Source: Cinnamomum chago (taxonomy: Eukaryota; Streptophyta; Magnoliopsida; Laurales; Lauraceae). From it: a stretch of 64,000 nt of DNA. The stretch is from the NCBI GenBank assembly GCA_038049695.1, contig CP142452.1, positions 80,650,501 through 80,714,500 on the forward strand, in the 5' to 3' direction. Both the position numbers and the translations under genes were made by a program. The first letter of the stretch is position 1. Each line of letters begins with the position of its first letter. Below the pieces are notes generated by a model, which saw only the letters and a list, made by a program, of their open reading frames with translations, was not told where the DNA came from and did no database searches. Below are positions 27,283 through 62,436 of this stretch, one piece after another.

Positions 27283-27317
<35 letters not shown>

Positions 27318-29418: not shown

Positions 29419-29453
<35 letters not shown>
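29419..29453. repeat. (CT)n(AT)n compound microsatellite
   Basis: A CT run passes directly into a TA run. There is no gene nearby. Confidence 0.85.
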
Positions 29454-57362: not shown

Positions 57363-57640
57363 TTTTTAATCATATAATTTGAATTTTATGGTTGAGGCAA
57401 CTCTTATTTTCGGTAAACTTTGAAGATATTTTGTATGTAAGGAGACATTCATTGCGAGCTACTCGTATTCTTAGTAGGAGGTCCCACAGTGAAGTCTCAA
57501 TCATTTTAATCATATAATTAGAATTTTATGGTTGAGCCAACTCTTATTTTCGGTGAACTTTGAAGATATTTTATATGTAAGGAGGCATTCATTGTGAGCG
57601 GCTCGTATTCTTAGTAGGGGGTCCCACAGTGAAGTCTCAA
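57363..57640. repeat. Tandem duplication, period 140 bp
   Basis: Two copies (about 57363-57503 and 57504-57640) share TTTTAATCATATAATT, GAATTTTATGGTTGAG, AACTCTTATTTTCGGT, AGGAGGCATTCATTG-like and GTCCCACAGTGAAGTCTCAA blocks with few differences. This suggests a fairly recent duplication. Non-coding. Confidence 0.9.
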
Positions 57641-58126: not shown

Positions 58127-58143
58127 TATATATATATATATAT
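58127..58143. repeat. (TA)n tract left of element A
   Basis: A pure TA tract that abuts the left end of the small element at 58144. Confidence 0.9.
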
Positions 58144-58328
58144 GAGAAAGTTTCAAGTGCATCTATCCCTCACCATAGGGTGAGAGACACTTCCCATTTT
58201 TGCACATGAAGATAAGGATGTGTACATCACCCTATGTCCTTGAAAAGTAACTTTTGTACTTGAAAATGTCCAATTATGGAAGTGTCCTTCACCTTATGGT
58301 GAGGGATGGATGCACTTGAAACCTCCCT
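58144..58328. mobile_element. TA-bounded inverted-repeat element A (MITE)
   Basis: The 185-bp element has about 50-bp inverted ends. The left starts GAGAAAGTTTCAAGTGCATC; the right, read inward, GGGAGGTTTCAAGTGCATCC. Both continue with ATCCCTCACCATA and GACACTTCC. It is non-coding and bounded by TA tracts on both sides. Confidence 0.85.
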
Positions 58329-58344
58329 TATATATATATATATA
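58329..58344. repeat. (TA)n tract between elements A and B
   Basis: A TA tract that separates the right end of A from the left end of B. Confidence 0.9.
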
Positions 58345-58449
58345 GGAGACCTCACACAGGCTGCAGCTAAGCTTATTACAAGCTGGAGCCTGTGAGGCCC
58401 AGGTGAGGCTCAAACAGTGGTTATGAGGCTCCAGCTTGTGTGAGCTCTC

Positions 58450-58452
<3 letters not shown>
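58345..58452. mobile_element. TA-bounded inverted-repeat element B (MITE)
   Basis: The 108-bp element has ends GGAGACCTCACACAGGCTGC and, read inward, GAGGAGAGCTCACACAAGCT. Its arms also share CTGGAGCCT/AGGCTCCAG. Non-coding, TA on both sides, with a sequence unrelated to A apart from the GGAGA-like tip. Confidence 0.8.

Positions 58453-58487
<35 letters not shown>
58453..58487. repeat. (TA)n tract between elements B and C
   Basis: About 17 pure TA units. Confidence 0.9.
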
Positions 58488-58490
<3 letters not shown>

Positions 58491-59736
58491 GGGGCCTCTC
58501 CTCAGCTCAAGTGTAGGGGAAAATCCGCTCAGGCATGTGAACGGCACGTGTGTGCGATGAAAGGACTTAAGTTGGCGCCCTTTTTTCATTCTTCCTTATC
58601 TTAAGCAAAACGAAACAAGGAAAATGCCCAAATCGAGCCAAATCGAAAGAAGGGAAGCAGCTGTTTGCATGCTCGTCCCTCATCTCTCCACATCTTCCTG
58701 GTCCTCGACACTCCGTCGCTCTCGCCCCTGGAATCTGGTCTCCTCCCTGACGTCGCTTGCTGCGACGTGCCCTCTCGTGTGACGGATTTCAAGCAAGTCT
58801 TTCTTCCAAGTTCTAGGGTTTATTTAGGTTATCTTCCTCTTCCTTTTTCTTCCAACTGTCACAAGGATCGAAAAACAAAGCATCAGATTTCAAGCAAGTC
58901 GTTCTTCCAAGCTGTAGGGCTTTTATTTTTTTATTTTTTTAAATCCATCTTTTCGTTGATGAATCTAGGGTTTTGATTGATTTCTGCTGTTACAAGTTAT
59001 GATTTTCATTCAGCGGCAGATCTTTCGCGGCTCTTGCATTAGATGCCAATGGTTTGAATTTTTCTAATTGATTTTTGGTTATTCTTTGCCTTCAGATCTC
59101 TGTTTTTGATGATCTAGCCTTTTGTGTTTAGATATTGTTGTGATGAAACTGATTTTGCATGGATTTGGGATTTATAGAGGGGGAGGTGGGGAGAGAGGAG
59201 ATTTGGTTCAATGACCGATGTCGTGGTTGGATCATGTGTGTTTGGATTTGGATGCTTGAGCAGTAGATGAGAGATTTCATGCGTGGGTTCTTTTGAGCTG
59301 GGAAGTAATATTGGAAGTGTTTTGATATTTGTTTTTTTTATTGGAAGTGTTTTTTTTTTTAATTTGCTAACTTTTGATTTTTGTGGCTTCCTCAGATTGT
59401 GAAAGTAAAATGTCAACAGACTCTGCAAGCTTCAGAGCATTCTAGCATTTGACAGACAAAATTTAGGGTTTTTTTTTTTTGTTCTGCAGACGTTTGGAGT
59501 GGTCACTGTTGAAATATTCAAACTACTGAAACATGTTGATTGGTCCCTGTAAAACTGTTGAACATGTTGATTGGTAACTCTTGATTGCATTTCTCAAATG
59601 TATTTCTGTTGGTTGCCCTGAAAGTTACATTCACAGATAATGGTTGACGGCATTTCTCAGGTTAATCTTTGTTATTATTTCAGGGTGCTTGGTTTCGTGT
59701 TACATGTGTCTTACAGGTATCATAAATATACAAAAA

Positions 59737-59897
59737 GTTTGATTGACCCTGGACGGGATATGTCTAATGGGCTTCCTCCCTGATAGAAGCTCTAGCAATA
59801 CAACCCCATAACTGTAAACTGTAAACATCACTCTTCACAAGCAGGTGCCCTGTCATTGCTGGAGCTACATTCTTGCAAATCCATCAAAGCTATTATA
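59737..59897 (-). pseudogene. Captured receptor-like kinase fragment inside element C
   Basis: On the - strand the kinase-domain phrases read FDGFARNVAPAMTGHLLVKS, then DVYS, then YGVVLLELLSGRKPI. The family reads SDFGLAR ... FGYVAPEYAMTGHLLVKSDV and YSYGVVLLELLTGRKP, as in ALE2/PERK-type kinases. Residues of the activation loop and the EY after AP are missing, and a tandem duplication of TTTACAG shifts the frame. It is a host gene fragment carried by the element, not a working gene. Confidence 0.8.
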
Positions 59898-61339
59898 TGT
59901 GGATAAATCGAACTAAAATGCAAGCTTCTGTTTCTTAAGAAACAAGACCCATGGCTTCAACACATGCTCTCTTTCACTGGAAACATTTAATCTATTCTAT
60001 CAGTTTTACAGTTTATTTTTTAGCCTTTTCTGGCAAAGTAAAACCTACAAACCATGAGATAATCTACATATTTACAATAAGGCTTATTCAGCTTTACTTT
60101 CTTTATAAAAAAATCACCAGGGTTTGAATATTTAGCAAATGTAAAACAATGAGATATAGTTAGAACACAGCAAAGGTATTCAACCATTATCCAGTACCAT
60201 TTATTAAATCTTGTACCCACCATGGAGGTGCACCCCTTCCCAAGGACCAACCGATAGCAGCTAAAGTGATACTAGTTCTATAACTATACCAATGCACAGG
60301 CTTAAATATGATACTAGAGAATACATTCAACATTCAAACACATAAAATGGTCCACACGGAGAAATTGGTACACACAGAAGTTTCAAGTTGGTTCATTTAA
60401 ATAATCTGGTCGAATTAGTTACATCAAAGCATGCCTAATCATTAAGCACAATAACTACACATCAACTCCAATAGACTGTCATGAAGCTAACAATGACACA
60501 AATTGAGGTTCGCTTCTATTTCACATGTTTTGATGCTTTATACTTTCTCTTAGACGTTGACATTCCAGCAGCCTCATTTCTTCTATCGAGCTTTTTATTT
60601 TTTTCATTTTCGCTTCAATTTTGCCACGTCTTGAATTTGAGTTATGAATCCACTCCGATGCAACTTCATCCATCCAAATTAGAAAAACACAACCTCTTTA
60701 TCCCTGCAATAAAATGCATCCTAATATCAATAAAGAATATTTTAGTCAAAAGATAACTTTAAAGGATGATTTTGAAAGTCTAGCGTATATTCAAATGTGG
60801 ACATTTCCAAAAATTTTGTGAAGTCTTTGGAACCATAGACCCATGTCCAAATGGGCACTTTGAAGCCCATTCTAAGTTTCAGAATGAAAGCGGCGATGTG
60901 TGCTTGAATATGACATGAGAAATGATGATCCCTGCTTGGACTTTTTGATAGCACTCAAATTTTTCTACAACAAACCTACCCGCAATTGCAATCAAAACTC
61001 CATATACTTCAAATTTGAAACAACATGTAACAATGAAATTTAAGTAATAGAGATAATCAGGGGAAATAAAGTATTCAATTAGTTGTAATAGAGATAGTTT
61101 ATTCAAACGCATTATTATAACTAAAATAATAAGAATAGGGATACCAAAGCATATCAGGAAAAAAAAATCAATAGCTTAAAAAGTGCAAGCACCTTCCAAA
61201 AATACTAGGTAATGAATAATGGAAGTAGGTTCTTGTAAAAAGAAATGTAAAATGACTTGCTCATCCCACAACTGCATTTTTTTTAAAAGAACGTCTCAAC
61301 GTTTTGACATTCGCACCACAAACGTGTTAATATAAAAAA

Positions 61340-61550
61340 TCAAAACTAGTAAAAATCAAGGTCAGTAGAAATGGATCATGCATCCCAAATAAAAAAAGAG
61401 TTATTAGAAAAAATCAAGGTCAGTAGAAATGGGTCCTGCATCCCAAATAAAAAAACGTATTATTATTATAAAAAATCAAGGCCAATAGAAATGGGTCCTG
61501 CATCCCAAATCCCAAACGTGTTATTATAAAAAATCAAGGCCAGTAAAAAT
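61340..61550. repeat. Tandem repeat, period about 58-62 bp
   Basis: Four units share AAATCAAGGTCAGTAGAAAT and GGGTCCTGCATCCCAAAT with A/T-rich linkers. They start at about 61355, 61413, 61475 and 61533, the last one partial. They lie within element C. Confidence 0.9.
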
Positions 61551-62383
61551 AAGAAAAGTCCTCTATCCAGCTGCAGAGAAAAACAGAACCCAGATCTCAA
61601 AAGGTCAAGCCTCGAGGCGGCTCTTCTTTGGCCTAACCCGCTGGAATCCGTTGCAGTAAAGTGGCGTCGCAGATCTTTGGAGAGGACCTTGTGGGTGCAG
61701 TGGAGGGCGGCCTCGCTGATCTTGGGAGGGGAGCGAGTAGAGAACATCACAAAGAGGGTGACGTGCAGCAAAGTAAAACCAGTCATACTGCTTTTTGACA
61801 GATTCTCAAGAGGATAGAGAGAAGGCTTTGGTTTTTCTCTGCGACGACAAAAAAACCCCAAAAACCCAAAAACAAAATCCAATCTTCTACAAAGAAGAAA
61901 ACCTCAGATCAGATCATAGCCCATCCAAACCAACACCTCCCCAGTAGCATTTTTGTAGCTTGCAAGTGCATGGGCAATCTGGAGGTGATGCTACCGCAGA
62001 ACGGATCGAGAGTTGGCAAAAGAGACCCAGTTGGCATCACCGTCCCAATTGTCATCATCCGGCGTCGATAACCACAGAGAGCTGGCAGAGAGCGGAGGAG
62101 ACAACCCATGAGATAATCTGTCGGATTCAGCTGACAGTGGTTCCTTAGGAGAGACTGAAGGCCGACGTCGAAGACGTTGAGGGAGAAGGGGATCGGAGAG
62201 GAAGTTGAGGCGCTGCAGTGGTTGAAGAGGAATGATGTTAGGCCTCCCGAAATAAGTTTTGATAAATGGGCGGGCCTCCAAACGAAATGGGCGGGATTTA
62301 AAAATTTGGTCCTTTCATCGCACACACGTGCCGTTCACATGCCTGAGCGGACTTCCCCTGCACTTGAGCTGAGGAGAGGCCTC

Positions 62384-62386
<3 letters not shown>

Positions 62387-62436
<50 letters not shown>
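62387..62436. repeat. (TA)n tract right of element C
   Basis: About 25 pure TA units that abut the right end of C. Confidence 0.95.

Follow-up and report, generated by a model that had tools for sequence, protein, structure and literature searches.

Elements of Mutator-like (MULE) type that target TA microsatellites have already been published from several plants as SaTar, MuTAnT, Ac-mMITE and Micron elements, and non-nested rows are on record for SaTar and for pineapple; the respective reports are drawn on here in part (PMC5907723; PMC4486113; PMC8449440). In guayule, rice, sorghum and citrus, SaTar elements are small MULE-type elements with terminal inverted repeats (TIRs) that are flanked by (TA)n and stand in mixed rows without nesting; some lie outside microsatellites, with target duplications of 10 bp in guayule and 9-10 bp in citrus, and microsatellite-flanked autonomous MULEs accompany them (PMC5907723). 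MuTAnT of Medicago truncatula is likewise a family of MULEs that insert preferentially into (TA)n; the minority of its copies that lie outside perfect TA have 9-bp duplications, and its autonomous member, AutoMuTAnT, has a Jittery-like transposase (PMC4486113). The Ac-mMITEs of pineapple are abundant MITEs in (TA)n, frequently gathered in non-nested clusters and bearing 9/10-bp duplications outside TA (PMC8449440), and the small (TA)n-flanked Micron elements of rice have been reclassified as non-autonomous MULEs under the name rSaTar2 (PMC5907723; PMC4486113). A target duplication of 9 bp is of MULE size (PMC5907723; PMC4486113). The mechanism that produces rows of TA-targeted MULEs is unsettled between plain transposition and circle recombination, as far as the consulted part of PMC5907723 goes.

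The locus described here lies in a window of Cinnamomum chago DNA, by which we mean the whole 64-kb stretch that was analysed, and has the structure (TA)n–A–(TA)n–B–(TA)n–C–(TA)n, in which A, B and C are three TIR elements with mutually unrelated bodies (Table 1). Its likeness to SaTar, MuTAnT and Micron is one of description. With a probability of roughly 0.85, A, B and C are non-autonomous MULE-type elements that were inserted successively into one pre-existing (TA)n, and the row of three in a single TA repeat is most likely the result of a preference of the Mutator-type elements of this plant for TA repeats. Against the published systems, several differences stand out. Whereas the flanks of SaTar elements were reported as inconsistent with cut-and-paste transposition and recombination of circles was proposed (PMC5907723, in the part consulted), most TA-flanked copies of A and B here have phases that fit an odd-length duplication. 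MuTAnT, in contrast to this locus, comprises one family with two subfamilies, and rows of unrelated elements are not described in the portion of its report drawn on here (PMC4486113). An autonomous partner of the Ac-mMITEs was not found in pineapple, according to the portion used of that account (PMC8449440), whereas a MULE with B-like tips is present here.

Table 1. Features of the array, in positions of the window
Feature	Positions	Strand	Remarks
TA tract, left border of A	58127-58143	.	17 bp
Element A, non-autonomous TIR element	58144-58328	+	185 bp; TA flanks T|T (same phase)
TA tract separating A from B	58329-58344	.	16 bp
Element B, shortened copy	58345-58452	+	108 bp; TA flanks A|A (same phase)
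TA tract separating B from C	58453-58487	.	35 bp
Element C, TIR element	58488-62386	+	3,899 bp; TA flanks A|T (mixed phase)
TA tract, right border of C	62387-62436	.	50 bp

The initial annotation had read this stretch (58127-62436) as three inverted-repeat elements in a row with a TA tract at every border and with unrelated bodies, and both statements proved exact. Alternating TA tracts of at least 9 bp number ten in the 64-kb window, and the array holds four of them. The inverted arms of A measure 45 nt and are 91% complementary; those of C comprise 69 nt at 97%, partly TA, and a further 57 nt at 91%. When the ends adjoining consecutive TA tracts were compared, the TIR scores were 31 for A, 17 for B and 36 for C, against a shuffled maximum of 14 in 4,000 comparisons; the cut-off was 17, which the shortened B of the window barely passes, most other copies of its family being about 128-132 bp long as opposed to 108 bp. 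The annotation had also called the tips alike, with ATA ahead of similar bases. This likeness holds for the first few purine-rich bases, whereas the A–C and B–C comparisons of the window tips gave no match at p < 0.01 and at the left tip of A the preceding bases are TAT instead of ATA. No Rfam family matched at gathering scores between positions 57500 and 63000 of the window. Directly left of the array, a 140-bp tandem duplication (57364-57640) is present in two copies at 93%. Elsewhere in the window, TA tracts of 29 bp (27286-27314) and 19 bp (29435-29453) have no element-like tip adjoining them and are unoccupied potential targets.

Copies of the three elements were sought in the genome (1.06 Gb in 14 contigs). 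First-look candidates numbered 1,870 (A), 313 (B) and 97 (TIR of C), of which 40 were scored in each case. Thirty B and 25 A loci were fetched, one per set being the window array itself, and the copies in them are the closest to those of the window and do not form a random sample. Terminal inverted repeats are present in both families. These loci, the window excepted, yielded 65 A and B copies; TA tracts of at least 9 bp adjoin 52 of them on both sides, 12 on one side and one on neither side, so that the flank tabulation suggested in the initial annotation came out on the side of targeting. For control pairs of stretches, two-sided tracts of this kind turned up in 0 of 20,000 cases drawn from the window without the array and in 3 of 1,590 drawn from copy-free parts of the fetched loci. 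Under a looser rule of three TA units, the copies divide into 55 with TA on both sides, 10 on one and none on neither, and the corresponding two-sided controls are 2/20,000 (window) and 6/1,590 (fetched loci); the TA background is in both cases that of the window and the fetched loci, and the control counts are derived from printed fractions.

Rows are common in the same loci. By an automatic rule, runs of at least two TIR elements joined by TA tracts occur in 17 of the 55 A and B loci, the window being counted twice: ten runs hold two elements, four hold three, and runs of four, five and six elements occur once each. The copy stands alone in 27 loci and is itself uncalled in 11, and the fetched loci extend 1.5 kb per side only, so that long elements such as C are missed. 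Two features of SaTar arrays, namely two-sided microsatellite flanks (52/65) and TA-joined rows of different elements (17/55), are thus found here.

A row of this kind might alternatively have formed once and then spread by duplication of a larger block, which would dispense with three separate targeting events. The presence of A within 1.5 kb of B at 8 of the 29 other B loci agrees with such a history, whereas none of the 24 other A loci holds a B; the greater frequency of A near B than of B in A loci is what is expected if A is much commoner than B. Moreover, A is found on either side of B, in rows of differing make-up, the TIR elements related to C have other neighbours than the C of the window, and the array has single-copy flanks, their joined sequence matching only itself in this genome and thus giving no empty site there. 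We regard block duplication as close to negligible.

Evidence on the insertion mechanism comes from copies outside pure TA, in which duplications were read from the printed flanks. An exact 9-bp duplication flanks two A copies, L062 and L060 (the latter at the margin of a short TA tract), and one B copy, L017, which lies in a TACA repeat; the duplication matches at 8 of 9 positions in L067 (A) and L035 (B). By these five copies, families A and B fit the MULE criterion of a target duplication of about 8-11 bp. In five other A and B copies that lack two-sided TA (L010, L022, L026, L027 and L034) an assignable duplication is absent. A further locus, L057, had been considered as a diverged paralogue of the L062 site and was dropped, its alignment being too poor. 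The initial annotation had held that copies in non-TA sequence with ordinary duplications would speak against targeting; a few such copies with 9-bp duplications do exist, as a minority only, and they suggest MULEs of the ordinary kind that strongly prefer TA.

Within (TA)n, the duplication can be read from phase. Because slippage lengthens or shortens a (TA)n tract two bases at a time, it leaves the phase of the tract relative to the element intact, and this phase tells an odd-length original duplication from an even-length one. If the direct duplication is odd in length, the two borders show the same base, A|A or T|T; if it is even, or if the TA is part of inverted ends, they show A|T or T|A. 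Of the 55 loci, 9 were unscorable; among the remaining 46 A and B copies, 39 were in direct phase, A|A in 20 and T|T in 19, and the other 7 were mixed (p = 1.8e-6). In 20,000 trials of right-flank shuffling, the number in direct phase averaged 23 and reached at most 35, and no trial attained 39. A stricter tract rule gave direct phase in 19 of 21 B copies (9/30 unscorable) and in 19 of 23 A copies (2/25 unscorable). In all three mixed-phase B copies among the 46, the TA tract adjoining the tip is broken. Read automatically with tip alignment, 37 of 44 A and B copies are direct, as are 23 of 35 other elements in the fetched loci (p = 0.09); without tip alignment, the figures are 30 of 44 (p = 0.02) and 22 of 35 (p = 0.18). 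The direct-phase excess among elements other than A and B is weak and not established, and tip indels weaken the automatic reading.

These results bear on the choice, posed by the initial annotation, between repeated targeting of TA and TA borne by the elements. Were TA carried on the inverted ends, or seeded by the tips through slippage after insertion, it would mark the element and not the target, in keeping with the TA that adjoins nearly all A and B copies examined and with the mixed phase of the window C, of the C-type element L044 and of seven A and B copies; growth of TA is moreover real elsewhere, since the maize TAFT/TAFTA events are described as a short TA site expanded after insertion (PMC5907723, in the part consulted). 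TA on inverted ends nevertheless predicts A|T or T|A, against the direct phase of the large majority of A and B copies. Both A|A and T|T are seen within each of the two families, so the element does not include the tract as a constant component, and L062 and L017, without a pure TA flank, have the 9-bp duplication all the same. Element-borne or element-seeded TA is therefore disfavoured for A and B, and as an account of the array we consider it very improbable; repeated targeting is favoured, with the C of the window as an exception.

The model put forward for SaTar, in which circular intermediates with microsatellite filler enter TA repeats by homologous recombination, accounts both for the targeting of repeats and for the absence of nesting, according to the part of PMC5907723 drawn on here, and would also preserve direct phase if the filler were a single odd-length duplication. 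Random filler, by contrast, would yield equal numbers of the two phases, unlike the distribution found here, and the exact 9-bp duplications outside pure TA, together with that of L060 at the margin of its short TA tract, are such that ordinary transposition suffices. Recombination of circles is hence an improbable, if slightly less remote, source of the array.

Under the preferred reading of successive insertion, each event would be a cut-and-paste transposition in which a MULE transposase duplicates an odd number of target bases, normally nine; within (TA)n this duplication would be hidden and visible only as the direct-repeat phase of the flanking tracts. Because TA would persist on both sides of each insertion, the site would still be a target, and side-by-side rows would accumulate, probably one element after another. 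B would be moved by a FAR1-type MULE of the family represented by locus L079, or by a relative of it, and A and C by other MULEs, C being a putative MULE derivative on the strength of its TIRs and TA flanks. The facts that run counter to this explanation are the mixed phase of the window C and of L044, the modest 23/35 of the other elements, the mixed phase of an L079-related element on contig C11, and the five copies without a duplication.

Element C differs from A and B in that the duplication evidence comes entirely from TA flanks. Ten translations of C, in frames of at most 145 aa, gave no Pfam match at cut-off and no transposase; gene capture in the manner of a Pack-MULE was tested by the same search and found no match at cut-off. 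The sisters of C are L040, which is near full length (93%), L039, which is longer (96%) through additional internal sequence and whose broken left end lies outside TA, and the partial L046 and L047. Related TIR elements of 3.4-6.5 kb are mostly TA-bordered. By eye, five of seven scorable C-type elements are in direct phase, the window C and L044 being mixed, and two more have a broken end. The core of the C tip has 48 exact matches in the genome, against none for a backward control, and none of the four opposed C-tip pairs, 9.5-17.4 kb apart, holds a transposase match among the matches listed. Opposed C-type tips 9.5-11 kb apart occur at C1:126461102-126472182, C4:55055421-55064928 and C6:64758932-64768896, and these three pairs, of the size of an autonomous MULE, are candidate partners of C. 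Gene-like frames stand at either end of two C-type elements with TIRs, L044 and L045 (5.4 and 6.5 kb); a PPR match below threshold on each side of L045 (E 0.07-0.09) hints at a captured gene fragment. Another C-type TIR family, represented by L078, lies within a short TA tract, and its inverted repeats are about 330 bp long and match at 86%; it was ruled out as an autonomous relative of C by the lack of a transposase-like long frame.

For a source of transposase, the genome was searched with the MULE profile PF10551, the best 150 of 3,015 candidates were scored, and two loci were read, L079 and L080. The latter, another MULE, was set aside, its inverted ends not being TA-associated, so that L079 represents one hit out of the two. 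L079 contains a frame of 754 aa with FAR1, MULE and SWIM domains. Opposed pairs of its first 201 bases delimit eight copies, with all 16 ends at 100% (rounded; one slightly lower); one copy spans 6.1 kb and seven span 10.6-11.1 kb. In all seven of the latter the 754-aa frame is stop-free at 100% (rounded), and the short copy, on contig C12, has its PF10551 match within an open frame of 561 aa. TA repeats adjoin 16 of the 16 ends, those on contig C8 being interrupted and one end on contig C4 being offset by two bases. The phase is direct in seven of the eight copies. In the eighth (L094/L095, G000:C4:81199631-81210221), the flanks are one sequence inverted, identical over 58 of 58 bases including the TA tract, so that inverted phase is forced; the locus is either palindromic or an assembly artefact. 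Two elements related to the L079 MULE are in direct phase in one case and in mixed phase in the other, which is the element on C11.

The tip of B, taken from copy L015, aligns with the L079-family TIR over the first 57 bases with a score of 20, which none of 1,000 shuffles equalled, and these B-like tips make a FAR1-type MULE of the L079 family, or a relative, a plausible driver of B. The tips of A and C gave no match at p < 0.01 against the TIR of this one MULE family, and a transposase-bearing element with A-like or C-like ends was absent from the matches listed (best 150 of 3,015 for PF10551; best 59 of 2,989 in the transposase search). Tentatively, and at somewhat less than even odds, the FAR1-type MULE transposase may itself recognise (TA)n and insert in either orientation with a 9-bp stagger, and the young 10.6-11.1 kb family may still jump, driving small elements into a microsatellite niche that renews itself.

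Relative to the published systems, what is added here is a phase test that, for A and B, favours target duplications of odd length inside TA, together with a FAR1-type MULE whose near-identical copies have TA at every end. The phase argument was not recognised in the literature searched, which was covered in part, and its absence from print is not claimed. With regard to the unsettled origin of TA-targeted MULE rows, the phase record in this genome supports plain transposition for A and B, and speaks against TA on the ends of the elements. The near-identical copies of the FAR1-type MULE offer a concrete candidate for a test of targeting, and the many copies of these elements in this genome help to reveal how insertion works.
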